A stretch of DNA of 45,572 nt from Denitromonas ohlonensis. Its GTDB lineage: Bacteria > Pseudomonadota > Gammaproteobacteria > Burkholderiales > Rhodocyclaceae. Both the position numbers and the translations under genes were made by a program. The stretch covers positions 1 through 45,572 of the forward strand of contig NZ_VMNI01000018.1 of assembly GCF_007625205.1 (NCBI RefSeq), given 5' to 3'. The notes beneath the pieces were generated by a model. It did no database searches and was not told the DNA's origin. It saw nothing but the letters and a program-made list of their open reading frames with translations. Shown here piece by piece: positions 32,042-45,572 of the stretch; position 1 is the first letter of the stretch; each line of letters starts with the position of its first letter.

Positions 32042-33064
32042 TTACTTCGATGCCGCGGCAACGTCCGCCTGAAGTTGCTCAAGGATTTTCCCGCTACGCC
32101 CCCCCACCATTTCAACCAGTTTAGCGTTCAAGGGTTTCACGCGCTTGCGAAACACTTCGCGCTCCGCGTCGGTCAAACGGATGACCGTAAGCTTCGGATT
32201 ATCCTTCTGCATTTTCGCTAGCGCAGCGGCGTTCTTCTCCTTCTGTTTGGCCAGGATGAAGGTTTGCAATTGCTCGCGCACCTCGTTGAGCATGGTTTTG
32301 TCTTGTTCGCTCAAACCGTTCCAGAAGTCAGCATTGGCCACCACCGTGGTGGTGTACTCGACATCGCCCGTATAGATCAAATGGGTGGTCACTTCATGGA
32401 ACTTGGCGCTCTCGATGAAGAACGGCGGATTGACCTGCGCTTGAATCACGTTCATCTGCAGGCCGCTGTAAATCTCGCCCCAAGGCAACGCAACCGGGTT
32501 GGCACCATACAGCTTGAACTGCTCGATGAGAATTGGCGAAGTCATTACACGAAACTTCACGTCACTCAGATCTTCCGGTGTGCGTACGGCTTTTTTGGTC
32601 GTCCACACCATCTCGCCTTCAGGATAGACGGTGAACAGCTTGAGACCTTTGCTCGCGAAGTCCTTTGCCAGCGAGTCATAGAGCGCCGGACTGCTCGAAA
32701 GCACTTTACCCTTTGCGGCATCAGACTCCGGCAGCAAATACGGCAGACTGAGCACCTGAACCTCAGGCACGAAAGTCCCCAGGTGTCCCGGTGAGGCGTT
32801 GGAGAACTGGATCGCCCCGCCCGCCGTCAGTTCGGTCAGGTCATTTTCGTTACCCAGCTGACCATAGGTGTACACCGTCACGGTAGTCTTGCCGCCGGTG
32901 CGCTCCTCGATGAGGCGCTTGAACTCTTCCGCGTAAAGCGTCTGGACGTCGCCCGGGCTCTCCTCGACGGCAAACTTCCATTCGGCGGCGCTGGCGCTGC
33001 TTATCGCCGCCAGCGCCAGCGTGGCGCCACAAAGCAGGGTCTTGAATTTTCCGGTGAATGCCAT
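32042..33064 (-). CDS. uehA: TRAP transporter solute-binding protein for ectoine/5-hydroxyectoine (UehA/TeaA-like)
   Basis: 340 residues. The signal peptide is MAFTGKFKTLLCGATLALAA plus ISSASA, with cleavage probably before AEWKF. The mature start WKFAVEESPGDVQTLYAEEF resembles the ectoine-binding protein TeaA of Halomonas (remembered start W-x-Y/F-A-x-EE-x-x-GDVQ). The region KFRVMTSPILIEQFKLYG, then ALPWGEIYSGLQ and NPPFFIES, holds the arginine and aromatic residues expected to cradle the ligand. It delivers ectoines to UehB-UehC. It runs on the minus strand, divergent from uehB, whereas the three genes usually lie together in one direction. AAGGAGA precedes the ATG. An EnuR-type motif lies about 100 bases upstream. 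Confidence 0.88.
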   Translation of the reverse strand: MAFTGKFKTLLCGATLALAAISSASAAEWKFAVEESPGDVQTLYAEEFKRLIEERTGGKTTVTVYTYGQLGNENDLTELTAGGAIQFSNASPGHLGTFVPEVQVLSLPYLLPESDAAKGKVLSSSPALYDSLAKDFASKGLKLFTVYPEGEMVWTTKKAVRTPEDLSDVKFRVMTSPILIEQFKLYGANPVALPWGEIYSGLQMNVIQAQVNPPFFIESAKFHEVTTHLIYTGDVEYTTTVVANADFWNGLSEQDKTMLNEVREQLQTFILAKQKEKNAAALAKMQKDNPKLTVIRLTDAEREVFRKRVKPLNAKLVEMVGGRSGKILEQLQADVAAASK

Positions 33065-33165
33065 GGTGGGTGTCTCCTTCCTCGTTATCAGGCAGTCTGT
33101 CGGTCAGCCACGATTTGCTGCATGGCGACTCGAAGTCCAGATTACAACGTCGCGATACGACGCCG

Positions 33166-33187
33166 AATGCACTAGAACAATACAAAG
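33166..33187 (+). promoter_or_regulatory. Candidate EnuR operator upstream of uehA
   Basis: The sequence begins AATGCACTAGAACAA and continues TACAAAG. It matches the site before eutC (38699-38720) at 19 of 22 positions and shares CTAGAACAATA with the inverted copy near uehB. It lies 102 bases before the uehA start. The three occurrences in front of three transport or catabolic units of one regulated pathway are the evidence; binding by EnuR is inference. Confidence 0.65.
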
Positions 33188-33344
33188 TGCAGACAACGCA
33201 CCCCGCTCTCCGGCCTCCGCTGTCCAGCGCCCTCCGCCGGTCACGCGCCGGATTTCCTGACCGTGTGAGGCGCGTGCCTCGCGCTGGGGCCGCCATGAAG
33301 CCGGAAAATTGCTGCAGGGCGATGGCGATTTTGACCCGGAACAA

Positions 33345-33362
33345 TATTGTTCTAGAGCAATC
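33345..33362 (-). promoter_or_regulatory. Candidate EnuR operator upstream of uehB
   Basis: Read on the minus strand it is GATTGCTCTAGAACAATA, matching the uehA-side site (GAATGCACTAGAACAATA) at 16 of 18 positions. It overlaps the palindrome GAACAATATTGTTC and a possible -10 region, about 100 bases before uehB, a position suited to repression. Confidence 0.6.
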
Positions 33363-33463
33363 TGGCGCACTTTCACATGCCGCTAGACTGCTCAGGTCAC
33401 AAAAACAAAAAGCGATGTGACCGCCAGTAGTACCCGCAGCTCAACGCCGAAGGAGGAATACCC

Positions 33464-34033
33464 ATGGACTCAATGTCCGAAGGCGGCATCGTGTTGCGCG
33501 GCGCGCGCCGAGTCGATCGCGCGCTCGCCCGCCTCGAAAAAATACTGCTAGCCGGCGCGGTCATCCTGATGGCCGTCAATACCATCGGCAATGTGGTCGT
33601 CCGGCTGGGCTTCAGCTCCAGCCTGTTCTTTGCTGAAGAGCTTAACCAGTTCCTCATCGTCCTCGTCACCTTCGTCGGCACCAGCGCAGCCGCTCGCCAG
33701 GGGCGGCACATCCGCATGTCGGCGCTCACCGACATGCTGCCGCTCAAATACCGCCGCTGGATGTTCGCCTTCATCCAGTCAACCACGGCGATCGTCCTGG
33801 CCGCCCTGGCGTGGTACGCGGCCACCTACATCCTGCGCGTTCAGGGCCTGGGCCGGGTGACACCGGCCATGCAGGTGCCGATGTGGATCACCCTGGTCTG
33901 GCTGCCGCTCGGCCTCGGTATTGCCGCATTGCAGTTCGTACTCGCCTCTGCCGCCAACCTGCGCAGCAAGGACGACGCCTACCTCGCAGCCAATGTGCGT
34001 GAGCAGGACGACGTCGACATGCCCACCGTCTGA
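33464..34033 (+). CDS. uehB: TRAP transporter small permease subunit (DctQ family)
   Basis: 189 residues with a strong ribosome site GAAGGAGG before the ATG. Four membrane helices are visible: LLAGAVILMAVNTIGNVVVR, FFAEELNQFLIVLVTFVGTS, FAFIQSTTAIVLAALAWYAA and ITLVWLPLGLGIAALQFVLA. The region AARQGRHIRMSALTDMLP between helices 2 and 3 is typical of DctQ. It forms the membrane part with UehC and uses a sodium or proton gradient. It lies 11 bases before uehC. Confidence 0.9.
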   Translation: MDSMSEGGIVLRGARRVDRALARLEKILLAGAVILMAVNTIGNVVVRLGFSSSLFFAEELNQFLIVLVTFVGTSAAARQGRHIRMSALTDMLPLKYRRWMFAFIQSTTAIVLAALAWYAATYILRVQGLGRVTPAMQVPMWITLVWLPLGLGIAALQFVLASAANLRSKDDAYLAANVREQDDVDMPTV

Positions 34034-34044
34034 GGAACACGACA

Positions 34045-35325
34045 ATGGCTCTCACGATTATTCTCGTCATGCTGGTCCTGCTGCTGCTCGGCTATCCGAT
34101 GCTCGTCCCGATGCTGGTGGCGACCTTCGTCGGCTTCTTCGTCTACTTCCCGATGCTCAAGTCGGACATCATCGTTCAGCAGATGATCAGCGGCATCAGC
34201 CCGGTGGCACTGATCACCGTGCCCATGTTCATTCTCGCCGCCGACATCGTCACCCGCGGGCATACTGCCAACCGGCTGCTCGATCTGGCGATGACCTTCT
34301 TCGGCCATGTGAAGGGCGGCCTGGCGGTCACCACCGCCGTGGCGTGCACCCTGTTCGGTGCGATTTCCGGCTCCACTCAAGCCACCGTGGTGGCCATCGG
34401 CGGCCCGATCCGCCCGCGCATGCTGCAGGCGGGCTACGACGACCGCTTCACCACCGCGCTGATCATCAACGCCTCCGACATCGCCTTCCTGATCCCGCCC
34501 AGCATCGGCATGATCGTCTTCGGCATCGTCGGCAAGGTGTCGATCGGCGAGCTGTTCCTTGCCGGCATCGGGCCGGGCCTGCTGATCCTGGTGCTGTTCA
34601 GCGCCTACTCGGTGTGGTACGCATGGCATCACAAGATTCCGCTGGCCCCGCGCATCGGCTGGGCCGACCGCCTTCGCGCCTCGCGCAAGGCAGTGCTCGC
34701 ACTGATGTTCCCGGTACTGATCATCGGCGGGCTGTATGCCGGCTACTTCAGCCCCACCGAGGTGGCCGCCATCGCGGTGCTCTACGCCTTCATCCTCGAG
34801 GTGTGCATCTACCGCGCGGTCAAGCTCAAGGACATCCCGCGCATCGCCTACTCCACCGGCCTGATCACCGGCATCGTGTTCGTGCTGGTCGGCACTGGCG
34901 CGGCCTTTTCGTGGATCATCTCCTTCGCCCAGCTGCCGCAGCAACTGATCGCCTCGATCGGTCTGGCCGACGCCGGCCCCTACACCATCCTGTTCGTGAT
35001 CTCGCTGTCCTTCTTCATCGGTTGCATGTTTGTGGACCCGATCGTGGTGACGCTCATCCTCACACCGATCTTCATGCCGCTGGTCAATGCCGCGGGCATC
35101 GATCCGGTGCTGGTCGGCACGCTGGTCACGTTGCAGATGGCCATCGGCTCGTGCACGCCGCCCTTCGGCTGCGACATCTTCACGGCCTGCGCAATCTTCC
35201 GCAAACCCTACCTTGAGGTGATCGCCGGCACGCCGCCGTTCATCATCATCCTACTGTTCGCCACCCTGCTGCTGGTGCTGGTGCCCGACATCGCGCTGCT
35301 GTTGCCACGGCTCGCCTTCCACTGA
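34045..35325 (+). CDS. uehC: TRAP transporter large permease subunit (DctM family)
   Basis: 426 residues, about twelve membrane helices. It opens MALTIILVMLVLLLLGYPML. DctM features include MISGISPVALITVPMFILAA, the glycine-rich FGAISGSTQATVVAIGG, and FLIPPSIGMIVFGIVGKVSI. It forms the ion-coupled channel for ectoines with UehB. GAGGAA precedes the start. Its TGA stop (35323-35325) lies inside the left target duplication of the inserted element at 35327-35479, so the insertion left the protein intact. Confidence 0.92.
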   Translation: MALTIILVMLVLLLLGYPMLVPMLVATFVGFFVYFPMLKSDIIVQQMISGISPVALITVPMFILAADIVTRGHTANRLLDLAMTFFGHVKGGLAVTTAVACTLFGAISGSTQATVVAIGGPIRPRMLQAGYDDRFTTALIINASDIAFLIPPSIGMIVFGIVGKVSIGELFLAGIGPGLLILVLFSAYSVWYAWHHKIPLAPRIGWADRLRASRKAVLALMFPVLIIGGLYAGYFSPTEVAAIAVLYAFILEVCIYRAVKLKDIPRIAYSTGLITGIVFVLVGTGAAFSWIISFAQLPQQLIASIGLADAGPYTILFVISLSFFIGCMFVDPIVVTLILTPIFMPLVNAAGIDPVLVGTLVTLQMAIGSCTPPFGCDIFTACAIFRKPYLEVIAGTPPFIIILLFATLLLVLVPDIALLLPRLAFH

Positions 35326-35326
35326 G

Positions 35327-35479
35327 AACGTGTGAAGAGATCGTTGCGAGCAGGACCGAGTGCAAGGCCGCATTTGGCAACTGCGCGAGCGAACGACGAG
35401 ACATATCAAATAGATAGGCGAGGAGTGAGCAAGTGAGCAACACAGCAAACGGCACGCACAGTAGATTTATTCACACGTT
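35327..35479. mobile_element. MITE-like insertion between uehC and eutA
   Basis: A 153-base element with perfect 10-base inverted ends AACGTGTGAA (35327-35336) and TTCACACGTT (35470-35479), extending to 14 of 16 matching bases. It is flanked by a direct repeat CTGAG (35322-35326 and 35480-35484), a 5-base target duplication. No coding frame of substance lies inside. Removing the element and one CTGAG restores a gap of about 14 bases between the uehC stop and the TTG of eutA, as expected for an operon. The size, ends and duplication fit a non-autonomous miniature element moved by an unseen transposase. The family was not recognised. Confidence 0.75.
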
Positions 35480-35497
35480 CTGAGCCCGGAGCCCGAA

Positions 35498-36262
35498 TTG
35501 AGAATCGACATCCTCCCGCACCACGACCCGATGACACCGCCCGAGCAGGCGCGGATCGGCCTGCTGGCGCTGGCCACCGACCTGTGCAGCGAGGCCGACC
35601 TGCGCCGCATGCTGCCCGACACGGTCGGCCTCTACAGCAACCGGGTGCGTCACGAAAACCCGATGAGCCTCGAGGCGCTGCGCCGCGTCGCCGACGACTT
35701 GCCCCGTGCCGGCCGAGACCTGCTACCCGGGCTCGCGCTCGATGTGGTGGTGTATGGCTGCACCTCAGGCACCATCGCCCTGGGCGAGGCCGAAACGCTG
35801 GCGATGATCGCCCGCGCGCGGCCTTGCCGCCACCAGACCACGCCGGTCACCGCCAGCCTGGCGGCGCTCGCTCACCTGGGCGCGAAGCGGGTGTCGATCC
35901 TCACGCCCTACCGCGCCGAGGTCAATCGCGCGCTGGGCGAGTACTACGCCAGCCGCGGCCTTGAGGTGCTCAACGTCTCGGGCCTGGACATGGACGACGA
36001 CTACGCCATGACCGCGCTGCACCCCGACACGCTGGTGGATGCCGGCGTCGCGGCGATGGCCGACGACGCCGACGCGCTGTTCATCTCATGCACGGCACTG
36101 CGCTCGAGCCGTGCCGTCGAGCGGCTCGAGGCGAAACTCGGCCGCCCGGTGGTCACCAGCAATCAGGCCATCGCCTGGCATGCGCTGCATCTCACCGGCC
36201 AGGGCGCCGGCGCAGTGGCGCCGGGTCGCCTGTTTCGAACCCTCGCACAAGGTGCCTCATGA
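35498..36262 (+). CDS. eutA: Ectoine utilization protein EutA (Asp/Glu racemase/maleate isomerase-like)
   Basis: 254 residues from TTG 35498, chosen because GGAG lies 6 bases upstream; ATG 35531 would give 243. It belongs to the Asp/Glu racemase-like superfamily: the two catalytic cysteines lie in VVVYGCTSGTIALG (about residue 88) and ALFISCTALRSSRAVERLEA (about 195). The N-terminal IGLLALATDLCSEADLRRML and the LTPYRAEVNRALGEYYASRG region fit EutA. EutA, EutB and EutC are thought to convert hydroxyectoine-derived intermediates toward the ectoine route, possibly by changing stereochemistry. The stop overlaps eutB as ATGA. Confidence 0.88.
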   Translation: MRIDILPHHDPMTPPEQARIGLLALATDLCSEADLRRMLPDTVGLYSNRVRHENPMSLEALRRVADDLPRAGRDLLPGLALDVVVYGCTSGTIALGEAETLAMIARARPCRHQTTPVTASLAALAHLGAKRVSILTPYRAEVNRALGEYYASRGLEVLNVSGLDMDDDYAMTALHPDTLVDAGVAAMADDADALFISCTALRSSRAVERLEAKLGRPVVTSNQAIAWHALHLTGQGAGAVAPGRLFRTLAQGAS

Positions 36263-37233
36263 CCGACGATATCCGCCCCATCGACATCTACCGCGCCCGC
36301 CACCGGCTGCGCGGCCACATACTGCACACCCAACTGGTCCGCTCGCCCAGCCTCTCGGAACACACCGGCGGCGAGGTGCATCTCAAGCTCGAATGTCGCC
36401 AGATCACCGGCAGCTTCAAGCTGCGCGGCGCCACCAACGCGCTGCTCTGCCTGGATGACGACGCCCGTGCCCGTGGCGTGATCGCCGTGTCCACCGGCAA
36501 CCACGGCCGCGCGCTGGCCTATGCCGCGCATCAGCTCGGGGTGCGCGCGGTGATCTGCATGTCGAAGCTGGTGCCATCCAACAAGGTCGAGGCGATCCGC
36601 GCGCTCGGCGCCGAGGTGCATATCGTCGGCAACAGCCAGGACGAGGCCGAGGTCGAGGTGGCCCGCCTGATCCGCGACGAGGGCCTGACGCTGCTGCCGC
36701 CCTTCGACCACCCCGACATCATCGCCGGCCAGGGCACCGTCGGCCTCGAACTGCTCGACGATCTGCCAGGCCTCGACACCGTGCTGGTGCCGCTGTCCGG
36801 CGGCGGGCTGCTGGCCGGCGTGGCGCTGGCGCTCAAGCGCGCGTCACCGCAGATCCGCGTGATCGGCGTCACCATGGAGCGCGGCTGCGCCATGCATGCG
36901 AGTCTGGCCGCCGGCAAGCCGGTGCAGGTCGAGGAGCTCGAAACGCTGGCCGACTCGCTCGGCGGCGGCATTGGTCTGGACAACCGCTACACTTTCCGGA
37001 TGGCGCAGACGCTGGTGGACGATGTGGTGCTGGTCACCGAGGAAGACATCGCCGCGGCCATCCGTCATGCTTACACCAAGGAACAGATCATCATCGAAGG
37101 CAGTGGCTCGGTCGGTATCGCCGCCCTGCTCTCAGGACGCCTCAAGACCACCGGCACGACGGCCATCCTGGTCAGCGGCGCGAACATCGACATGGCGCTC
37201 CACCGCCGCATCGTGTGCGGCATGGAGACCTGA
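36259..37233 (+). CDS. eutB: Hydroxyectoine utilization dehydratase EutB
   Basis: 324 residues from ATG 36259, overlapping the eutA stop by 4 bases. It is a fold-type II PLP enzyme of the threonine dehydratase type: the PLP lysine is in RQITGSFKLRGATNAL, then VSTGNHGRALAYAAHQLGV, the phosphate-binding VLVPLSGGGLLAGVALALKR, and a C-terminal SGSVGIAALL. The regulatory ACT domain of IlvA is absent. In eut clusters it is the dehydratase acting on the hydroxylated intermediate from 5-hydroxyectoine. Context with eutA, eutC, doeA and doeB makes EutB much more likely than a general threonine dehydratase. Confidence 0.88.
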   Translation: MTDDIRPIDIYRARHRLRGHILHTQLVRSPSLSEHTGGEVHLKLECRQITGSFKLRGATNALLCLDDDARARGVIAVSTGNHGRALAYAAHQLGVRAVICMSKLVPSNKVEAIRALGAEVHIVGNSQDEAEVEVARLIRDEGLTLLPPFDHPDIIAGQGTVGLELLDDLPGLDTVLVPLSGGGLLAGVALALKRASPQIRVIGVTMERGCAMHASLAAGKPVQVEELETLADSLGGGIGLDNRYTFRMAQTLVDDVVLVTEEDIAAAIRHAYTKEQIIIEGSGSVGIAALLSGRLKTTGTTAILVSGANIDMALHRRIVCGMET

Positions 37234-37266
37234 ACGACCAGCCCCTTCGGTCCGGGAGTCATCGGT

Positions 37267-38661
37267 ATGGAGCAATGGCGCAAGGCACTCGACGCGGTAC
37301 GCAGCGGCGAATCCAAGTACAAGGTGCTCGTCGAGGCGATCACACGGGACATCGACAGCGGCGTGCTCAAGGAAGGCGTGCGCCTGCCACCGCAACGCCA
37401 GGTCAGCCTGGCGGTGGGCATCAGCGTGCAGACCGTCACCAATGCCTACAAGGAGCTGGAGCAGCACGGCCTGATCCGCTGCGAGGTCGGGCGTGGCAGC
37501 TTCGTCGCCAAGCGCGTCACTGAAAAGGTCGCCACCTACATGCTCGACCGCGCCGAGCGCGCGCTGATCGACTTCTCCATCGTGCGCATCGTTCACACCG
37601 CCGAGCACGGCCGCCTGTGGCGCAAGGCCTGCGCCGATCTGGCCACCCAGGTCGACCAGCCATGGATGCGCGCCTACCGGCCGATCGCCGGCTTCGAATA
37701 CCACCGCGCGGCCGGCGTCGAGTGGATGGCCTCGCTGGGGCACGAGGCCCGCGTCGAAACCACGCTGATCACCAACGGTGCCTCGCACGCCATCTTTCTC
37801 GCGCTCGCCTCGCTGGTCAGCCCCGGCGACGTGGTGCTGAGCGAGAACATCACCGACCACGGCGTGATCGGCACCGCGCAGGTGCTCGGCTTCACGCTCA
37901 AGGGCCTCGATACCGACGAATACGGCATCCAGCCCGACCACTTCGAAGAGATGTGCGCCAACGAACGTGTCACCGCACTGGTCACCACGCCCAACCTGAA
38001 CAACCCCACCTCCTCGATCATGCCGGATGCACGGCGGCGTGCGATCGCCCGCATCGCCAACCGCTACGGGGTGTATGTGATCGAGGATGACGTCTTCGGC
38101 CCGCTGCTGTCCAGGCGAACACAACCGATCGCCAACCATATCCCCGATCTCGGCTTCTATTGCACCAGCCTGACCAAATCGGTGCTCACCGGCCTGCGCA
38201 CCGGCTATCTGAGCATGCCGAAGAAGATGGCCCTGCGCGTCGAGAGCATCCTGCGCGTCAACTGCTGGATGGCCACGCCGCTAATGGCCGAAATTGCCAC
38301 CCGCTGGATCGCCGACGGCACTGCCAATCACCTCATCGAGATCCAGCGCGAGCGCCTCGGCCGCCGACACGACATGGTGCTCGAAGTGCTGGGCGACTAC
38401 CGCCTCGGCAGCCATCCGGAATCCCTCTCGGCGTGGCTGCGCATTCCCCAGCACTGGCGGCTCGACGCGCTCGCACAGCAACTGCGCAACAGCCATATCG
38501 CGGTCACCCTGCCCGACCCCTTCCTCGTCCTTGGCACCCCGCGACCCGACGCGATCCGCATCTGCCTGGGCGCCGAAGGCAGCGACGTGCGCATGCATTC
38601 GGCCCTGTCCACCCTGCGCAGCGTGTTTCAGCAATACCCCCACGTCCACGCCACGCTCTGA
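37267..38661 (+). CDS. enuR: EnuR, MocR-type transcriptional regulator of ectoine use
   Basis: 464 residues with two domains. Residues about 12-85 are a GntR-type winged helix (LKEGVRLPPQRQVSLAVGIS, then VQTVTNAYKELEQHGLI). Residues about 110-464 are an aminotransferase fold: ITNGASHAIFLALASLVSPG, NLNNPTSSIMPDARRRA, and the PLP lysine in YCTSLTKSVLTGLRTGYLSM. EnuR holds PLP and senses ectoine-derived compounds such as N-acetyl-diaminobutyrate and diaminobutyrate, lifting repression of uptake and catabolism genes. Here it lies between eutB and eutC rather than at the cluster head. GGGAG lies before the ATG. The shared motifs at 33166, 33345 and 38699 are its likely targets. Confidence 0.9.
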   Translation: MEQWRKALDAVRSGESKYKVLVEAITRDIDSGVLKEGVRLPPQRQVSLAVGISVQTVTNAYKELEQHGLIRCEVGRGSFVAKRVTEKVATYMLDRAERALIDFSIVRIVHTAEHGRLWRKACADLATQVDQPWMRAYRPIAGFEYHRAAGVEWMASLGHEARVETTLITNGASHAIFLALASLVSPGDVVLSENITDHGVIGTAQVLGFTLKGLDTDEYGIQPDHFEEMCANERVTALVTTPNLNNPTSSIMPDARRRAIARIANRYGVYVIEDDVFGPLLSRRTQPIANHIPDLGFYCTSLTKSVLTGLRTGYLSMPKKMALRVESILRVNCWMATPLMAEIATRWIADGTANHLIEIQRERLGRRHDMVLEVLGDYRLGSHPESLSAWLRIPQHWRLDALAQQLRNSHIAVTLPDPFLVLGTPRPDAIRICLGAEGSDVRMHSALSTLRSVFQQYPHVHATL

Positions 38662-38698
38662 GCGCGCCCATGCGGCACCCCGCACCAATATCCGCGGC

Positions 38699-38720
38699 AA
38701 TGCACTAGGACAAAAGAAAG
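38699..38720 (+). promoter_or_regulatory. Candidate EnuR operator upstream of eutC
   Basis: AATGCACTAGGACAA followed by AAGAAAG matches the uehA-side copy at 19 of 22 positions. It lies 76 bases before the eutC start in the 134-base gap after enuR, so eutC-doeA1-doeA2-doeB may have their own promoter under EnuR. A sigma-70 pair was not clear. Confidence 0.65.
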
Positions 38721-38753
38721 CCAAATTCCACGCCCTACACTTGATTGCAATGA

Positions 38754-38773
38754 CCTGAACCCGTTCGTTCAGG
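38754..38773 (+). other. Hairpin in the eutC leader
   Basis: CCTGAAC (38754-38760) and GTTCAGG (38767-38773) form a 7-bp stem with a 6-base loop, 22 bases before the eutC ATG and 7 bases before the GAGGG ribosome site. There is no T-run. It may shape the mRNA leader or be a protein site. Confidence 0.4.
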
Positions 38774-38795
38774 CCTGCAACGCAAAGAGGGCGGT

Positions 38796-39785
38796 ATGTC
38801 GAATGTCATTTTGCTGAACGAGAAGGACCTGCGCGCCAGCGTCACGCTGGATCTGGCGGCCATCGACTGCATCGAGCAGGCCTTCCGCATCCTCGCCACC
38901 GAGGATGTGATCATGCCGCCGATCCTGCGTCTGGACATCCATGCGTACAACGGCGAGGTGGACGTCAAGACGGCCTACCTGCCGGGCCTCGACAGCTTCG
39001 CCATCAAGGTCAGCCCCGGCTTCTTCGACAACCCGAAACTCGGCCTGCCGAGCCTCAACGGCATGATGATGTTGTGGTCGGCCCGCACCGGCATCCTCGA
39101 AGCGCTGCTGCTCGACAACGGCTACCTCACCGCCGTGCGCACCGCCGCCGCCGGCGCTGTCGCCGCGCGCTGGCTGGCCCGCGAGGACGCCCATCGCGCC
39201 GCCGTCATCGGTGCCGGCGAGCAGGCCCGGCTGCAACTGAAGGCGCTGACGCTGGTGCGCAAGATCACCTCGGCCACCGTCTGGGCACCGCACAGTGACG
39301 CCGCGCAGCGTTTTGCCGACAACATCGGGCGCGAACTGGGCATTGCCATCACCCCGTGCACCGATATCGATCACGCCATGGCCGAGGCCGATGTCGCCAT
39401 CACCACCACGCCGAGCCGCGAGCCACTGATCCAGGCCCGCCACCTGCGCCCCGGCCTGCACATCACCGCCATGGGCTCGGACGCCGAACACAAGAACGAG
39501 ATCGCCCCCGACGCGCTGGCCGCCTGCACTTATGTGTGCGACCGGGTGAGCCAGGTCCGCGTGCTCGGCGAACTGCATCACGCCATCGACGCCGGCACGG
39601 TCGCCGCCGACGCGCAACCGGCCGAACTCGGTCAGGTCATCGCCGCGCAGCGCCCGGGTCGCACGCGTGCCGACGAGGTCACCCTGTGCGACCTGACCGG
39701 CACCGGCGCACAAGACACCGCCATTGCCAACTTCACCTACGCACGCGCCATCGAGCGCGGCCTGGGTCTGTCATTCGCGTCCTGA
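38796..39785 (+). CDS. eutC: Ectoine utilization protein EutC (ornithine cyclodeaminase/mu-crystallin family)
   Basis: 329 residues with GAGGG before the ATG. It opens MSNVILLNEKDLRASVTLDL. The family core is visible: VKVSPGFFDNPKLGLPSLNG, LDNGYLTAVRTAAAGAVAAR, and the Rossmann motif RAAVIGAGEQARLQLKALTL, then ITAMGSDAEHKNEIAPDAL. These NAD(P)-dependent enzymes act on cyclic or amino-acid substrates. EutC works with EutA and EutB in hydroxyectoine breakdown; its exact step is not settled. It starts a likely second transcription unit (eutC-doeA1-doeA2-doeB). Confidence 0.88.
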   Translation: MSNVILLNEKDLRASVTLDLAAIDCIEQAFRILATEDVIMPPILRLDIHAYNGEVDVKTAYLPGLDSFAIKVSPGFFDNPKLGLPSLNGMMMLWSARTGILEALLLDNGYLTAVRTAAAGAVAARWLAREDAHRAAVIGAGEQARLQLKALTLVRKITSATVWAPHSDAAQRFADNIGRELGIAITPCTDIDHAMAEADVAITTTPSREPLIQARHLRPGLHITAMGSDAEHKNEIAPDALAACTYVCDRVSQVRVLGELHHAIDAGTVAADAQPAELGQVIAAQRPGRTRADEVTLCDLTGTGAQDTAIANFTYARAIERGLGLSFAS

Positions 39786-39794
39786 GCCCGGCAC

Positions 39795-40982
39795 ATGACA
39801 CACGCCCTCCGCCTCCCCTTTGAGCGCAGCGAGTACGCCCAGCGCCTGGCCAAGACCCGTGCCGCCATGGCAAAAAAGGGCGTGGACCTGCTGATCGTCA
39901 CCGACCCGGCCAACATGCACTGGCTCACCGGCTACGACGGCTGGTCCTTCTATGTGCACCAGTGCGTGCTGCTCGGGCTGGACGGCGAGCCGGTGTGGTT
40001 CGGCCGCGGCCAGGACACCAACGGCGCCCGCCTCACCACCTGGCTCGCGCCCGACAACAGGGTCGGCTACCCCGATATCTACGTGCAGTCCACCGAACGC
40101 CACCCCATGGACTACCTGTCCACCGAGGTGATTACCGCGCGCGGCTGGCACACCAAGCGCATCGGCGTGGAGATGGACAACTACTACTTCAGCGCCGCCG
40201 CCTTCGCCTCGCTGCAAAAGCATCTGCCGCAGGCCACGTTCGTCGACACCAACGCCCTGGTGAACTGGCAGCGCGCGGTCAAGTCGCCGCAGGAGATCGC
40301 CTACATGCGCATCGCCGCGCGCATCGTCGAGAAGATGCACGAGAAGATCGTCGAGGTCATCGAGCCGGGCATGCGCAAGAACGAACTGGTCGCCCAGATC
40401 TACTCGACCGCCATCCTCGGCGCCGAGGGCCACGGCGGTGATTACCCCTCGATCGTGCCGATGCTGCCCACCGGCGCCGACGCCGCCGCCCCGCACCTGA
40501 CCTGGGACGACTCGCCCATGCCGGCCGACTCGGGCACCTTCTTCGAGATCACCGGCTGCTACCGGCGCTATCACTGCCCGCAGTCGCGCACGGTGTATCT
40601 GGGCCGCCCGCCGAAGCACTTCATCGAGGCCGAAAAAGCCATCATCGAAGGCATCGAGGCCGGCCTCGACGCGGCCAAACCCGGCAACACCTGCGAGCAC
40701 ATCGCCAACGCCTTCTTCGCCGTGCTCAAGCGCTACGGCATCGACAAGAGCAGCCGCTGCGGCTACCCCATCGGCGCCAGCTACCCGCCCGACTGGGGCG
40801 AGCGCACGATGAGCCTGCGCCCCGGCGACCAGACCGTGCTCGAGCCCGGCATGACCTTCCACTTCATGCCCGGCCTGTGGCAAGACGACTGGGGCCTGGA
40901 GATCACCGAAAGCATCCTCATCACCGACACCGGCGTCGAGCCCCTGTGCACCACGCCACGCAAACTGTTCGTCAAGCCCTGA
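39795..40982 (+). CDS. doeA: Ectoine hydrolase, first of two tandem copies (DoeA/EutD)
   Basis: 395 residues, M24/creatinase-prolidase family. An N-terminal domain (1-150) holds LLIVTDPANMHWLTGYDGWS and is followed by the pita-bread domain with GAEGHGGDYPSIVPMLPTGA, ITGCYRRYHCPQSRTVYLGR and the late MTFHFMPGLWQDDWGLEITE. Some of the usual metal ligands of prolidases are replaced, as in DoeA. DoeA opens the ectoine ring to give mainly N-alpha-acetyl-2,4-diaminobutyrate. It lies 9 bases after eutC. The second copy follows 47 bases later; the two differ at roughly 25 positions in the first 98 residues but at only 3 later ones (Leu/Met in YSTAI-x-GAEG, Gln/Thr in GD-x-TVLEPG, and the last residue). 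Confidence 0.9.
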   Translation: MTHALRLPFERSEYAQRLAKTRAAMAKKGVDLLIVTDPANMHWLTGYDGWSFYVHQCVLLGLDGEPVWFGRGQDTNGARLTTWLAPDNRVGYPDIYVQSTERHPMDYLSTEVITARGWHTKRIGVEMDNYYFSAAAFASLQKHLPQATFVDTNALVNWQRAVKSPQEIAYMRIAARIVEKMHEKIVEVIEPGMRKNELVAQIYSTAILGAEGHGGDYPSIVPMLPTGADAAAPHLTWDDSPMPADSGTFFEITGCYRRYHCPQSRTVYLGRPPKHFIEAEKAIIEGIEAGLDAAKPGNTCEHIANAFFAVLKRYGIDKSSRCGYPIGASYPPDWGERTMSLRPGDQTVLEPGMTFHFMPGLWQDDWGLEITESILITDTGVEPLCTTPRKLFVKP

Positions 40983-41029
40983 TCGCGGGCGGACGGATCG
41001 AACCACCCCGATCAAGGGAGACAAACGAG

Positions 41030-42217
41030 ATGACCACTGAAGTCAAACTGCCCTTCACACGCAGCGAGTACGCCCAGCGCCTGGCCAAGACCCGCGCCGC
41101 CATGGCCCAGCGCGGCGTCGACCTGCTGATCGTCACCGACCCGGCCAACATGAACTGGCTGACCGGATACGACGGCTGGTCCTTCTATGTGCACCAGTGC
41201 GTGCTGGTCGCGCTGGAGGGCGAGCCGTTGTGGTTCGGCCGCGGCATGGACGGCAACGGCGCGGCGCGCACCGCCTACATCGCGCCCGAGAGCATCATCC
41301 GCTACCCGGACCACTATGTGATGTCCACCGAACGCCACCCGATGGACTACCTGTCCACCGAGGTGATTACCGCGCGCGGCTGGCACACCAAGCGCATCGG
41401 CGTGGAGATGGACAACTACTACTTCAGCGCGGCCGCCTTCGCCTCGCTGCAAAAGCACTTGCCGCAGGCCACGTTCGTCGACACCAACGCCCTGGTGAAC
41501 TGGCAGCGCGCGGTCAAGTCGCCGCAGGAGATCGCCTACATGCGCATCGCCGCGCGCATCGTCGAGAAGATGCACGAGAAGATCGTCGAAGTGATCGAGC
41601 CGGGCATGCGCAAGAACGAGCTGGTGGCGCAGATCTATTCGACCGCCATCATGGGCGCCGAAGGCCACGGCGGGGACTACCCGTCGATCGTGCCGATGCT
41701 GCCCACCGGCGCCGACGCCGCCGCCCCGCACCTGACCTGGGACGATTCGCCCATGCCGGCCGACTCGGGCACCTTCTTCGAGATCACCGGCTGCTACCGG
41801 CGCTATCACTGCCCGCAGTCGCGCACGGTGTACCTGGGCCGCCCGCCGAAGCATTTCATCGAGGCCGAAAAAGCGATCATCGAAGGCATCGAGGCCGGCC
41901 TCGATGCGGCCAAACCCGGCAACACCTGCGAGCACATCGCCAACGCCTTCTTCGCCGTGCTCAAGCGCTACGGCATCGACAAATCCAGCCGCTGCGGCTA
42001 CCCCATCGGCGCGAGCTACCCGCCCGACTGGGGCGAGCGAACCATGAGCCTGCGCCCCGGCGACACCACCGTGCTCGAGCCCGGCATGACCTTCCACTTC
42101 ATGCCCGGCCTGTGGCAAGACGACTGGGGCCTGGAGATCACCGAAAGCATCCTCATCACCGACACCGGCGTCGAGCCCCTGTGCACGACGCCGCGCAAAC
42201 TGTTCGTCAAGGAGTGA
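41030..42217 (+). CDS. doeA: Ectoine hydrolase, second tandem copy (DoeA/EutD)
   Basis: 395 residues from ATG 41030, with AAGGGAG upstream; a longer frame only reads back into copy 1. Domains are as in copy 1, nearly identical from residue 99 on, including most synonymous positions. The block about 73-98 is divergent (here MDGNGAARTAYIAPESIIRY, in copy 1 QDTNGARLTTWLAPDNRVGY). This part belongs to the N-terminal domain, which in DoeA helps close the active site, so the two copies may prefer different substrates such as ectoine and 5-hydroxyectoine. A repeat of this size is likely to recombine. doeB follows 5 bases later. Confidence 0.9.
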   Translation: MTTEVKLPFTRSEYAQRLAKTRAAMAQRGVDLLIVTDPANMNWLTGYDGWSFYVHQCVLVALEGEPLWFGRGMDGNGAARTAYIAPESIIRYPDHYVMSTERHPMDYLSTEVITARGWHTKRIGVEMDNYYFSAAAFASLQKHLPQATFVDTNALVNWQRAVKSPQEIAYMRIAARIVEKMHEKIVEVIEPGMRKNELVAQIYSTAIMGAEGHGGDYPSIVPMLPTGADAAAPHLTWDDSPMPADSGTFFEITGCYRRYHCPQSRTVYLGRPPKHFIEAEKAIIEGIEAGLDAAKPGNTCEHIANAFFAVLKRYGIDKSSRCGYPIGASYPPDWGERTMSLRPGDTTVLEPGMTFHFMPGLWQDDWGLEITESILITDTGVEPLCTTPRKLFVKE

Positions 42218-42222
42218 GTGTC

Positions 42223-43215
42223 ATGAAACCCTCACCAATCAGCCCGACCGTCGACTTCGACCGCGACGGCGTGCAGCACGGCTTTCTCAAGCTGCCCTAT
42301 TCGCGCGATGCCGCCGCCTGGGGGGCGGTGATGATTCCGGTCACCGTGGTGCGCAACGGCAGCGGCCCCACCGCGCTGCTCACCGGCGCCAACCATGGCG
42401 ACGAGTACGAAGGCGCGGTGGCGCTGCGCAAGCTCACCGACACGCTCACGCCCGAGCAGGTGCGCGGCCGCGTGATCATCGTGCCCTTTCTCAACTTTCC
42501 GGCCTTTCGCGCCGGCACGCGCACCTCGCCGATCGACAAGGGCAACCTCAACCGCAGTTTTCCCGGCAAGCCCGACGGCACGGTGACCGAGAAGATTGCC
42601 GACTACATCCAGCGCCACCTGCTGCCGCTGGCCGACTATGTGCTGGACATCCATTCCGGCGGCAAGACGCTCGACTTCCTGCCCTTCGCGGCGATCCATG
42701 TGCTCGACGACAAGGCACAGGAAGCGCGTTGCCAGATGGCCATGGATGCCTTCGGCGCGCCCTACTCAATGCACATGCTCGAACTCGACAGCGTCGGCAT
42801 GTTCGACACCGCGGCCGAAGAGGCCGGCAAGGTGTTCGTCTCCACCGAGCTCGGTGGCGGCGGCACGGCGACCGCCAGGAGCATCGCCATCGCCGAGCGC
42901 GGCGTGCGCGACTTCCTGATCCACTGCGGCATCTGCCAGGGCGAGGCCTCGCAGCGTCAATCGATCAAGCTCGACATGCCCGACGGCGACTGCTACGTCG
43001 CCTCGACGCACGACGGCCTGCTCGAGATGTGCGTCGACCTCGGTGATCCGGTGAACACCGGCGATGTGGTCGGCCGGGTGTATGACGTGACGCGCACCGG
43101 CAGCGCACCGGTCGAGTATCGCGCCGCACGCGGCGGCATTCTCGCGGCACGGCACTTCCCCGGCCTCATCAGCGTCGGCGACACCCTCGCGGTAATCGCC
43201 GACGTGGTCGGCTGA
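42223..43215 (+). CDS. doeB: N-acetyl-2,4-diaminobutyrate deacetylase (DoeB/EutE)
   Basis: 330 residues from ATG 42223, with AAGGAG in the end of doeA2. It belongs to the succinylglutamate desuccinylase/aspartoacylase (M14-like) zinc family: LLTGANHGDEYEGAVALRKL provides the His and Glu ligands and LDIHSGGKTLDFLP the second His. Other marks are NRSFPGKPDGTVTEKIADY and the late VSTELGGGGTATARSIAI. It removes the acetyl group from the DoeA product, giving L-2,4-diaminobutyrate and acetate. The usual next genes doeD and doeC are not present here. Confidence 0.92.
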   Translation: MKPSPISPTVDFDRDGVQHGFLKLPYSRDAAAWGAVMIPVTVVRNGSGPTALLTGANHGDEYEGAVALRKLTDTLTPEQVRGRVIIVPFLNFPAFRAGTRTSPIDKGNLNRSFPGKPDGTVTEKIADYIQRHLLPLADYVLDIHSGGKTLDFLPFAAIHVLDDKAQEARCQMAMDAFGAPYSMHMLELDSVGMFDTAAEEAGKVFVSTELGGGGTATARSIAIAERGVRDFLIHCGICQGEASQRQSIKLDMPDGDCYVASTHDGLLEMCVDLGDPVNTGDVVGRVYDVTRTGSAPVEYRAARGGILAARHFPGLISVGDTLAVIADVVG

Positions 43216-43292
43216 CCCCGACCCCCAATTCATATTCAACACCGTCCGAACGGCACCGGCCGGGACGCACATCCGACCAAGGAGAGACTGCA

Positions 43293-44474
43293 ATGAACGA
43301 CTACGAAAACCACACCGGAACGGCATCGGTCTGGGCCGGCGAAGAACACCTGTTCGCCGAGAACGCCATCTGCCTGCCCGTCTACAATTCCGTCACCTTC
43401 GGCTATGACGACATGGACGAATGGCACCAGGTCGGCATGGGCAAGAAGAAAGGCCACATCTACTCGCGCAACACCAACCCCACGGTGCGCCCGCTCGAAG
43501 AGAAGATCCGCCTCATGGACGGCGGCGAAGAAGCCACCAGCTTCTCCACCGGCATGGCCGCCATCAGCAACACGCTGTTCACCCTGCTCGGCCCGGGCGA
43601 CCGCGTGGTGGCGATCAAGGACACCTACGGCGGCTCGAACAAGATCTTCATCAAGTTCCTGCCGCAGATGAAGGTCGACGTATGCATGGTCGACACCAGC
43701 GATTTCGACGCCATCGAGCGCGAGGTCAAGAAGGGCTGCAAGGTGCTCTACCTCGAGACGCCGACCAACCCCACGCTGAAGATCGTCGACATCGAGCGCC
43801 TCGCCAAGGTGGCGCACGAACACGGCGCCATCGTGGTGGTCGACAACACCTTCGCCACGCCGATCAACCAGCGCCCGATCAGCCTCGGTGCCGACGTCGT
43901 CGTGTATAGCGCCACCAAATACCTCAACGGCCACTCGGACGTGATGGGCGGCCTGGCCGTCGGCAAGAAGGCACTGATCGACCAGATCTTCCACTACCGC
44001 GAGATCACCGGCGCCACCCTGCATCCGCAGTCGGCCTACATGATCCTGCGCGGCATGAAGACGCTGGAGCTGCGCATCGCGCGCCACAACGAAAACGCCA
44101 TGAAGGTCGCCACCTTCCTGTCGCAGCACCCGAAGGTCGACCAGGTCTTCTACCCCGGCCTGGAAACGCACCTGAACCACGCCATCGCGAAGAAACAGAT
44201 GCGCGGCTTCGGCGGCATGCTCAGCTTCTCGCTCAAGGGCGGCTTCGAGAACGTGGTGACCGTGCTGGAGAACCTCAAGTACGCTCACAAGGCGGCCAGC
44301 CTCGGTTCCGTCGGCACCCTCGTCGGCCCGCCGCGCACCACCAGCCACGTCGAGCTGACCGAGCAGGAACGCGCCAACGCCGGCATCCCCGAGAGCCTCA
44401 TCCGCTACTCGGCCGGCATCGAGAACGGCGACGACCTGGTGGCCGACCTGGAGCAGGCGCTGGCGAAAATCTGA
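43293..44474 (+). CDS. Trans-sulfuration family PLP enzyme (cystathionine gamma-synthase/lyase-like)
   Basis: 393 residues with AAGGAGAG before the ATG. Family marks: HIYSRNTNPTVRPLEEKIRL (Tyr and Arg that hold PLP phosphate from the neighbouring subunit), SFSTGMAAISNTLFTLLGPG, YLETPTNPTLKIVDIERLA, VVDNTFATPINQRPISLGAD, and the PLP lysine in VVYSATKYLNGHSDVMGG. The C-terminal part has VGTLVGPPRTTSHVELTEQE and IRYSAGIENGDDLVADL. Such enzymes do alpha,gamma-type eliminations or replacements on homoserine esters, cystathionine or methionine. No sulfur genes are near. It lies 77 bases after doeB in the same direction, so a role in gamma-elimination of diaminobutyrate is a reasonable but untested idea. 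Plain methionine gamma-lyase or CGS activity is the alternative. Confidence 0.8.
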   Translation: MNDYENHTGTASVWAGEEHLFAENAICLPVYNSVTFGYDDMDEWHQVGMGKKKGHIYSRNTNPTVRPLEEKIRLMDGGEEATSFSTGMAAISNTLFTLLGPGDRVVAIKDTYGGSNKIFIKFLPQMKVDVCMVDTSDFDAIEREVKKGCKVLYLETPTNPTLKIVDIERLAKVAHEHGAIVVVDNTFATPINQRPISLGADVVVYSATKYLNGHSDVMGGLAVGKKALIDQIFHYREITGATLHPQSAYMILRGMKTLELRIARHNENAMKVATFLSQHPKVDQVFYPGLETHLNHAIAKKQMRGFGGMLSFSLKGGFENVVTVLENLKYAHKAASLGSVGTLVGPPRTTSHVELTEQERANAGIPESLIRYSAGIENGDDLVADLEQALAKI

Positions 44475-44498
44475 TCCGCCGTCCCAACCATTCCGTCA

Positions 44499-44529
44499 CC
44501 CCTGCCCCGCCCGTGCGGCGTGGCAGGGG
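44499..44529 (+). other. Hairpin overlapping the ribosome site of the lipoyl-E3 gene
   Basis: CCCCTGCC (44499-44506) and GGCAGGGG (44522-44529) form a perfect 8-bp G+C stem. The 3' arm runs into the purine-rich GGGGGAGGAG that serves as ribosome site for the start at 44541. There is no T-run, so it is not a simple terminator. It may hide the ribosome site, or partly separate this gene from the upstream one. Confidence 0.5.
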
Positions 44530-44540
44530 GAGGAGCCCGC

Positions 44541-45572
44541 ATGAGTGAACTGCAGGAAGTCAAAGTCCCCGATATCGGCGATTACGCCGATGTGCCGGTG
44601 ATCGAGCTCTACGTCAAGGTCGGCGACACCATCGCCGTCGATGACCCCATCGTCACGCTCGAGTCCGACAAAGCCACCATGGACGTCCCGTCCGAGGTCG
44701 CCGGTGTGATCAAGGAAGTCAAAGTCGCCCTGGGCGACCGTGTGGCCGAAGGCAGCGTGCTGATCGTTGTCGACGCCGCCGGCGCGGGCGCGGCGGCCGC
44801 TCCGGCGGCAGCCGCAGCCCCGGCCCCCGCAGCCGCACCGGCCGCCGCGCCGGCCGCTGCCGGTGGTGGCGTGGTCGAAGTCAAAGTGCCCGACATCGGT
44901 GATTTCGATTCCGTGCCGGTGATCGAGCTCTACGTTAAAGTCGGCGACACCATCGCCGTCGATGACGCGATCGCCATGCTCGAGTCCGACAAAGCCACCA
45001 TGGACGTCCCCTCCACTGCCGCTGGCGTGGTCAAGGAAGTCGTGGTGGGACTCGGCAGCAAGGTCTCCGAAGGCTCGGTGCTGATCAAGGTCGCCGCGGC
45101 TGGCGCTGCCGTAGGGCCGGCTTCAGCCGGCCAACCAGTCGATGGCGGGTTGAAACCCGCCCTACCGACGGCCCCTGCCCCCGCAGCCGCCTCGCATGCC
45201 GGGGGTGCCGACATCGAGGTCGACATGCTCGTCCTCGGCGCCGGCCCGGGGGGTTACTCTGCCGCCTTCCGCGCGGCCGACCTCGGCCTGAAAACCGTCA
45301 TCGTCGAGCGCTACGCCACCTTCGGCGGCGTCTGCCTCAACGTCGGCTGCATCCCCTCCAAAGCCCTGCTGCACGTGGCCGCGGTGATGGATGAGGCCCA
45401 GCACATGGGTGGCGCGGGCGTGAGCTTCGCTAAGCCCACGGTCGATCTCGACGCCCTGCGCAAGCACAAGGAAGGCGTGGTCGGGAAGCTCACCGGCGGT
45501 CTGGCCGGCATGGCCAAAGGCCGCAAGGTCGACATGGTGCGTGGCTACGGCCACTTCCTCGACCCGAATCAC
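44541..45572 (+). CDS. lpdA: Dihydrolipoamide dehydrogenase with two N-terminal lipoyl domains, cut by the window edge
   Basis: An open frame from ATG 44541 to the window end (344 codons, no stop). Lipoyl domain 1 (about 6-78) and lipoyl domain 2 (about 113-187) both have the lipoylation lysine in ESDKATMDVPS. They are joined and followed by Ala/Pro-rich linkers. The E3 domain starts at about 225: VDMLVLGAGPGGYSAAFRAA (FAD), then the redox disulfide in GGVCLNVGCIPSKALLH. One lipoyl domain on E3 is known in Neisseria and other betaproteobacteria; two copies here look like a duplication, similar at DNA level with an offset of 321 bases. E3 reoxidises lipoate in 2-oxoacid dehydrogenase complexes. 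Residues encoded at 45111-45165 come from a palindromic repeat. Confidence 0.93.
   Translation, partial: MSELQEVKVPDIGDYADVPVIELYVKVGDTIAVDDPIVTLESDKATMDVPSEVAGVIKEVKVALGDRVAEGSVLIVVDAAGAGAAAAPAAAAAPAPAAAPAAAPAAAGGGVVEVKVPDIGDFDSVPVIELYVKVGDTIAVDDAIAMLESDKATMDVPSTAAGVVKEVVVGLGSKVSEGSVLIKVAAAGAAVGPASAGQPVDGGLKPALPTAPAPAAASHAGGADIEVDMLVLGAGPGGYSAAFRAADLGLKTVIVERYATFGGVCLNVGCIPSKALLHVAAVMDEAQHMGGAGVSFAKPTVDLDALRKHKEGVVGKLTGGLAGMAKGRKVDMVRGYGHFLDPNH
45111..45165. repeat. REP-like two-hairpin palindrome inserted in frame in the lipoyl-E3 gene
   Basis: 55 bases with outer ends GTAGGGC and GCCCTAC. The first internal hairpin is GGCCGGCTTCAGCCGGCC (8-bp stem) and the second GGCGGGTTGAAACCCGCC (8-bp stem), separated by AACCAGTCGAT. 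This layout is that of REP or BIME elements, normally found between genes. Here it sits in the linker between lipoyl domain 2 and the E3 domain and is read through in frame as VGPASAGQPVDGGLKPALP, with no stop. Only one copy was seen in the window. Confidence 0.8.

Follow-up and report, generated by a model that had tools for sequence, protein, structure and literature searches.

A proposed diaminobutyrate gamma-lyase exit from ectoine breakdown to propionyl-CoA in Denitromonas ohlonensis

The DNA analysed here, referred to as the window, is a whole contig (C14, 45,572 bases) from the draft genome of Denitromonas ohlonensis (4.42 Mb, 40 contigs). Its right part carries genes for the uptake and degradation of ectoine and hydroxyectoine, and doeB is followed there by genes for a pyridoxal phosphate (PLP) enzyme of the cystathionine gamma-synthase (CGS) family and for dihydrolipoamide dehydrogenase (E3). 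With moderate confidence, we favor the view that the steps of DoeD and DoeC are replaced in this organism: CGS would make 2-oxobutanoate from L-2,4-diaminobutyrate (DABA), and a linked 2-oxoacid dehydrogenase complex would turn it into propionyl-CoA. Very likely, the CGS gene serves the breakdown of ectoine, either at the DABA step or later. Its product in the window lineage is probably 2-oxobutanoate, a compound that fits the linked 2-oxoacid dehydrogenase. A wider proposal is offered only tentatively: CGS may represent a new PLP enzyme, L-2,4-diaminobutyrate gamma-lyase (deaminating), carried by plasmids and chromosomes in at least three phyla, through which ectoine would yield acetate, two NH3 and 2-oxobutanoate, and then propionyl-CoA, without 2-oxoglutarate, while a sister clade would lead to homoserine and, via homoserine dehydrogenase, to aspartate.

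The family assignments support the pathway as far as DABA, through EutB and EutC (with an EutA-like protein), DoeA and DoeB; the steps after DABA are predictions from sequence. In the established pathway, EutABC, DoeA and DoeB together yield DABA and acetate. CGS would then form the external aldimine with DABA, remove the alpha- and then the beta-proton, expel the gamma-ammonium and release 2-oxobutanoate and NH3 (two NH3 in total), as in cystathionine and methionine gamma-lyases. The second AceE of the genome, with AceF and the lipoyl-E3, would oxidize 2-oxobutanoate to propionyl-CoA, which probably enters the methylcitrate cycle. In clade II of the CGS tree (see below), water may instead replace the gamma-amino group to give homoserine.

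The CGS enzyme and its association with ectoine genes

CGS scores above the cut-off of NF006097/PRK08249, "cystathionine gamma-synthase family protein" (Table 1), and below those of the methionine gamma-lyase model TIGR01328 (412 against 549.7) and the cystathionine gamma-synthase (MetB) model TIGR02080 (348.2 against 504.55). It retains the PLP lysine K209, Y57/R59 and R371, with Gly114 at the position of the methionine gamma-lyase cysteine; the roles of these positions are presumed, and the cysteine is numbered Cys116 in methionine gamma-lyase. The motif YGG is present in all 20 aligned PRK08249-type sequences, whereas the methionine gamma-lyase of Denitromonas ohlonensis itself has YGC. The latter enzyme is the product of a separate gene on contig C24 (719.9, cut-off 666), which encodes the cysteine and has an Lrp-type regulator gene adjacent to it.

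A tree of the 20 PRK08249-type sequences and five outgroups contains two clades. Clade I (support 0.989) comprises the window family, Klebsiella, Bacteriovoracaceae, Martelella, Rhodoferax and Bacteroidota, and has Ser/Gly at the positions where clade II (0.935; Francisellaceae and a related gammaproteobacterium, Priestia, and genomes G158 and G062) carries Asn336/Glu341. The node uniting them is weakly supported (0.424). Homoserine dehydrogenase is encoded in three of the five clade II loci (L024, L120, L231), so the product may differ in this clade. In L120 and L024, where its gene lies about 5 kb and 9 kb from CGS, it is of the NF004912 type, as in Priestia. The clade I loci searched, among them those of the window family and Klebsiella and some that are short, gave no match to it.

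When genome contigs were scanned with the CGS protein, 37 loci were obtained, 15 at 66-98% identity and 22 at 36-43%. Genes of the doe/eut type were found in nine of the 15 nearest loci (L015-L020, L024, L025, L029) and in none of the 22 others. The order doeA-doeB-CGS-lpd is common to the window and seven relatives (L015-L020 and L176; L020 begins inside doeA). The association extends to distant bacteria: the DoeB and DoeA proteins are 41% and 30% identical to those of the window in the Francisellaceae locus L024, and 36% and 31% in the Bacteriovoracaceae locus L029. Priestia plasmids (L231, L234; Bacillota) carry eutB-pdxS-M24-cyclodeaminase-CGS-M20-homoserine dehydrogenase-aldehyde dehydrogenase, with an M20 deacetylase-like gene in the place of DoeB.

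CGS genes about 78% identical to that of the window were found in 28 Enterobacteriaceae plasmid records among the matches listed (27 Klebsiella, one Pluralibacter), and all 28 accessions recur among 29 records with doeB at no less than 99%. Two of these Klebsiella-type regions contain eutC, a PLP enzyme gene, ehuABCD, a regulator, doeA, doeB and CGS, with DoeA and DoeB above their cut-offs; DoeC and DoeD queries gave no match in the regions viewed. The plasmid copies are near-identical and were counted as one lineage. Pairing of CGS with ectoine genes occurs in five lineages of three phyla (Pseudomonadota, Bdellovibrionota, Bacillota). The earlier note on this DNA had raised the question of whether the PLP gene stands beside doeB in other genomes lacking DoeD; it does so in genomes where no DoeD reaches 600 bits, distant lineages included. 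Within a sample of the window's family, CGS is present in four of 150 genomes, all four with doeB. In the phylum sample, three of 398 genomes exceed the PRK08249 cut-off, namely Denitromonas ohlonensis, G158, which has no DoeB at 1e-20, and G062, where all of the classical doeABCD genes are clustered at another place.

The Klebsiella plasmid cluster (L230, L232, L233; NZ_CP031815.1 and NZ_CP013713.1) combines ectoine uptake and degradation on IncFIB-type plasmids. Enterobacteriaceae hosts of such plasmids came from patients, animals and sludge, and megablast found no match to the cluster in the E. coli genomes searched. At another locus, in Martelella (L022, 62-19490), a CGS homolog lies beside genes for LLM-type oxidoreductases, hydantoinase-like and F420-cofactor-like proteins, and an M24 hydrolase that resembles DoeA (438 bits against a cut-off of 613). 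Most of these gene names are sequence readings, and the locus perhaps serves the breakdown of another ring compound.

DoeD and DoeC in genomes with doeB

Neither doeC nor doeD was found in the window, as the earlier note had stated. Absence from the neighborhood was rejected as evidence by itself, for many doeB loci lack both genes within about 9 kb on each side, and most phylum-sample genomes with such loci still have DoeD. Genome-wide DoeD scores and the adjacency of CGS were therefore used instead.

The Denitromonas ohlonensis genome encodes six class-III aminotransferases, two of them resembling gamma-aminobutyrate (GABA) transaminase and the others ArgD, BioA, AptA and HemL. None is a DoeD by identity or score, the best being 34% identical to a DoeD. 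With a DoeD model (A4) built from nine DoeDs, the best score in this genome (G000) is 278.7 bits, against 750-802 for the DoeDs of 32 other doeB genomes. No DoeD of at least 600 bits was found in the 11 distinct genomes that hold CGS and doeB. Besides G000, their best scores are 277.4 (G541, the same genome as the L015 record), 285 (G463), 283.3 (G511, the same as G548), 388.7 (G546), 281.7 (G547), 286 (G549), 281.7 (G550), 177.1 (G554) and 156.2 (G555), and G559 has no match at 1e-30. Among the 36 other genomes above the DoeB cut-off, 32 have a DoeD of at least 750 bits. The contrast between the two groups is strong, and the 11 genomes are not 11 independent events. Ten of the 11 have CGS next to doe genes; G555 has it next to eutB/eutC, with doeB on another contig. 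The remaining four of the 36 (G354, G046, G193, G099) have doeB, no DoeD at E 1e-100 and no PRK08249 gene over the cut-off.

DoeC is less easily judged. The succinate-semialdehyde dehydrogenase GabD, encoded beside gabT on contig C26, is 51% identical to a DoeC, and the DoeCs of other clusters are often no closer to one another (48-53% for several), so that a DoeC elsewhere in the genome is possible. The earlier note had proposed to look for both genes anywhere in the genome: no doeD ortholog was found, and a doeC may be present.

The linked dehydrogenase complex

The E3 gene is cut by the end of the window. The start of contig C34 encodes the final 196 residues of an E3, and over this part the identity to the E3 of the Denitromonas locus L016 is 98%. 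Next come lrp on the other strand (98% to L016), aceE (97%) and aceF (88%). In L016, doeB-CGS-E3 and then lrp, aceE and aceF lie on one contig. From this synteny we infer that C34 continues C14, with about 0.5 kb of the E3 gene unassembled. The E1 and E2 genes that the earlier note had proposed to look for on the right would accordingly be those of C34, and doeB-CGS-E3 runs into aceE-aceF on a single contig in L018, L019 and L176 as well as in L016. In L020, a few kb separate aceE/aceF from these genes and they are read from the opposite strand, and the contigs of L015 and L017 end within the E3 gene. The Lrp-type regulator gene accompanies the linked aceE/aceF in Denitromonas ohlonensis and L016.

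The linked E1 scores 1380 with TIGR00759 (cut-off 859.9). The other AceE of the genome, on contig C8, is 55% identical to it and belongs to the ordinary clade. Since this housekeeping AceE is on C8, the linked complex is a second one, and its identification as the housekeeping complex was rejected. At the position of Val192 in E. coli AceE, a residue which we take to line the active site, the ectoine-linked E1 has Gly in all six readable sequences. Housekeeping-type AceEs have Val in all 29 readable sequences, which are C8 and 28 of the 30 top loci of the order sample (L200 and L205 gave no usable motif). Second AceE copies were readable in 17 of 20 loci (L214, L224 and L227 excepted), with 15 Gly and two Ala. 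For G606, the copy taken was the higher-scoring one. The 23 Gly/Ala192 sequences form one clade with support of 1.0, and the change from Val192 to Gly suggests an altered substrate pocket. Second AceEs with Gly/Ala192 (L208-L226) recur in many genomes of the order, usually with a nearby Lrp. A related Lrp gene was found in 16 of the 20 second-AceE loci, and the CGS gene in none; this arrangement is reminiscent of the mde operon of Pseudomonas putida. With the alpha-ketoglutarate dehydrogenase model TIGR03186 (cut-off 1408), all three second AceEs scanned pass (1447, 1454, 1579), and the three ectoine-linked E1s scanned (1333-1334) and the housekeeping AceE (1254) fall below.

Two lipoyl motifs, reported for the window E3 in the earlier note, were confirmed. 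As a meaningful trait the double-lipoyl form was rejected: the linked E3 has one motif in all six relatives examined (L015 partly covered), and the housekeeping E3 of the genome has two. The window E3 DNA is 93% identical over 1018 bases to the end of the E3 gene on C8. It looks like the result of conversion by the housekeeping copy, which may have caused the assembly break at the contig end.

Competing explanations, known systems and gene layout

Several observations weigh against a gamma-lyase route to propionyl-CoA. Clear ectoine neighbors are absent from six of the 15 nearest CGS loci (L021-L023, L026-L028). In L022 and L023, the one related gene is of the M24 type, 48% identical to DoeA and about 6 kb distant; L021, L026, L027 and L028 contain no doe/eut genes by this search, and the M20 amidohydrolase adjoining CGS in L027 scores 168 with DoeB2, far under the cut-off of 550. 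The CGS homologs of G158 and G062 (54-55%) stand apart from doe genes. In the distant lineages the family scores fall short: for L024 and L029, the best families are DoeB at 279 and 283 (cut-off 402.7) and DoeA-2 at 505 and 572 (575), and in Priestia the M24 protein scores 531 with DoeA (613) and the M20 protein 227 with DoeB2 (550). The Priestia operon also contains genes for a homoserine dehydrogenase and an aldehyde dehydrogenase. Of the 11 genomes with CGS and doeB, eight belong to one bacterial family (four by kinship, four by organism name), and several of the 11 are incomplete drafts, which weakens the absence of DoeD there. The contiguity of C14 and C34 is deduced, Lrp was not found in the L018, L019, L020 and L176 loci, and TIGR03186 names the sister E1 type an alpha-ketoglutarate dehydrogenase. 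Ammonia is a poor leaving group; cystathionine gamma-lyase deaminates homoserine, which likewise has a poor leaving group. Finally, PrpD was not found in the genome. PrpF is present over its cut-off, and this combination fits the type of methylcitrate cycle in which AcnD and PrpF are paired.

For the sister clade, a homoserine-forming enzyme is a serious rival. CGS would then be a DABA gamma-hydrolase, with water replacing the gamma-amino group to give L-homoserine, which homoserine dehydrogenase and aldehyde dehydrogenase would convert to aspartate. The Priestia operon pairs CGS with both of these enzymes, L120 and L024 have the NF004912-type homoserine dehydrogenase nearby, and all three fall into the Asn336/Glu341 subclade. 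The lack of a homoserine dehydrogenase match in the clade I loci searched, short ones among them, and the linkage of a 2-oxoacid dehydrogenase instead in the window family make this explanation unlikely overall. We consider it quite unlikely that CGS-lpd-lrp-aceE-aceF is a catabolic module for methionine or another amino acid that merely stands beside the ectoine genes. Such a module would resemble the mde operon of Pseudomonas putida, in which mdeR encodes an Lrp regulator, mdeA methionine gamma-lyase and mdeB an AceE-like E1, and 2-oxobutanoate is made and oxidized. The parts are the same, and the Lrp shares 38-45% identity with Lrps encoded next to other genes of the gamma family (41% with the one at the methionine gamma-lyase gene of this genome), against mostly 30-40% with those near doeB. 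Yet CGS lacks the methionine gamma-lyase Cys and falls far short of the cut-off for that family, C24 holds a true methionine gamma-lyase gene accompanied by an lrp, and in the Klebsiella plasmids, L024 and L029, CGS stands beside doe genes without the E1 block.

Very little probability is given to the possibility that a promiscuous transaminase and dehydrogenase, such as GabT and GabD of C26, handle DABA with CGS as an accessory. Both genes are present, and Halomonas elongata without doeD is still described as growing slowly on ectoine (PMC3187862); this explanation does not account for the recurrence of CGS with doe genes in distant lineages, or for the absence of DoeD there. Least probable is that CGS uses DABA and the linked E1-E2-E3 is a spare dehydrogenase for pyruvate or another 2-oxoacid, unrelated to its product. 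The E1 is well over the cut-off of the TIGR00759 pyruvate dehydrogenase model, its sisters are called alpha-ketoglutarate dehydrogenase by TIGR03186, and no E1-E2-E3 block is seen at the loci of the four other CGS-ectoine lineages. On the other hand, the E1 is a member of the separate Gly/Ala192 clade, and throughout the window family it is kept next to the ectoine genes.

L016 shows a layout like that of mde, with Lrp divergent from an AceE-like E1 and a gamma-lyase nearby, and so would C14-C34 if the two contigs are joined; L018, L019, L020 and L176 gave no Lrp hit. Common to both systems are the Lrp regulator, a PLP lyase of the gamma family, the AceE-like E1, and 2-oxobutanoate as a compound made and oxidized, which is here a proposal. 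Unlike in mde, neither the score nor a Cys marks the PLP enzyme of the window as a methionine gamma-lyase, and the block includes E2 and E3 and is joined to ectoine genes. One study places aceE/mdeB and mdeA under methionine catabolism (PMC10256816).

Ectoine degradation by doeABCD/eutABCDE-ssd-atf, with DABA as an intermediate, was described for Halomonas elongata and Ruegeria pomeroyi in PMC3187862 and PMC5924519, and the transaminase route in PMC10228743 and PMC7192451. The window shares with these systems DoeA, DoeB, the Eut enzymes, EnuR, TRAP uptake and DABA as intermediate. It differs in that no DoeD ortholog was found in the genome, no DoeC is adjacent and doeA is duplicated; the places of DoeD and DoeC would be taken by a PLP enzyme of the gamma family together with a 2-oxoacid dehydrogenase complex. 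Formation of 2-oxobutyrate from ectoine via threonine, with EutB as threonine dehydratase, appears as a speculation in PMC5320631. That route has the same ectoine-derived product but relies on EutB, not on a gamma-lyase acting on DABA. No description of the CGS gene or its reaction in ectoine breakdown was recognized in the open-access literature, as partly covered by titles and the starts of abstracts.

Among microbes, ectoine is of major importance as an osmolyte and as a nutrient, and a single route, leading to aspartate, has been described for its degradation. A gamma-lyase exit, if true, would be a new enzyme activity that redirects ectoine carbon to propionyl-CoA, of relevance to ectoine-producing strains and odd-chain products. 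It would account for doeAB clusters without doeCD, for example those of the Klebsiella-type plasmids. It would also propose a substrate for the PRK08249 family, of which CGS is a member over the curated cut-off and which has so far been named by similarity only, the model name giving none. It further yields a testable claim on the second AceE in many members of the window's order.

The gene order given in the earlier note, with DoeA, DoeB and the CGS-type PLP gene, is upheld by the family scores, the EutA-like protein being below its cut-off (Table 1). The DctQ-like and DctM-like names are our own sequence readings, made without a family scan. From the second doeA onward all genes are on the + strand, with gaps of 5 bases (doeA-doeB), 77 (doeB-CGS) and 66 (CGS-E3), so a single transcript is plausible.

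Table 1. Genes of the ectoine region in the window
Position	Strand	Product	Basis (bits, cut-off) or remark
32042..33064	-	TRAP substrate-binding DctP, probable ectoine uptake	NF037995, 187.7 (50); position kept in L018 and L175, partly in L019
33464..34033	+	TRAP small membrane subunit, DctQ-like	open reading frame; order kept in L015-L019
34045..35325	+	TRAP large membrane subunit, DctM-like	open reading frame; 83-99% identity in L015-L019
35498..36262	+	EutA-like	best family TIGR02990, 229 (318), below cut-off
36259..37233	+	EutB, hydroxyectoine utilization dehydratase	NF005680, 518 (413)
37267..38661	+	EnuR/EhuR MocR-type regulator	NF052286, 627 (480)
38796..39785	+	EutC cyclodeaminase	TIGR02992, 521 (471.65)
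39795..40982	+	DoeA copy 1, ectoine hydrolase	TIGR02993, 744 (613)
41030..42217	+	DoeA copy 2, ectoine hydrolase	TIGR02993, 742.8 (613)
42223..43215	+	DoeB, N-alpha-acetyl-diaminobutyrate deacetylase	TIGR02994, 588 (402.7)
43293..44474	+	PRK08249-family PLP enzyme (CGS), proposed diaminobutyrate gamma-lyase	NF006097, 669.6 (600)
44541..45572	+	lipoyl-E3 (dihydrolipoamide dehydrogenase), two lipoyl domains	cut at 345 codons by contig end

What looked like a loss of doeA in L018 and L019 is a run of N where the assembly has a gap; both copies are there in the relative L176. The tandem doeA (39795-42217), which the earlier note does not mention, is also present in L015, L016, L017 and L176, and is partly visible in L020.

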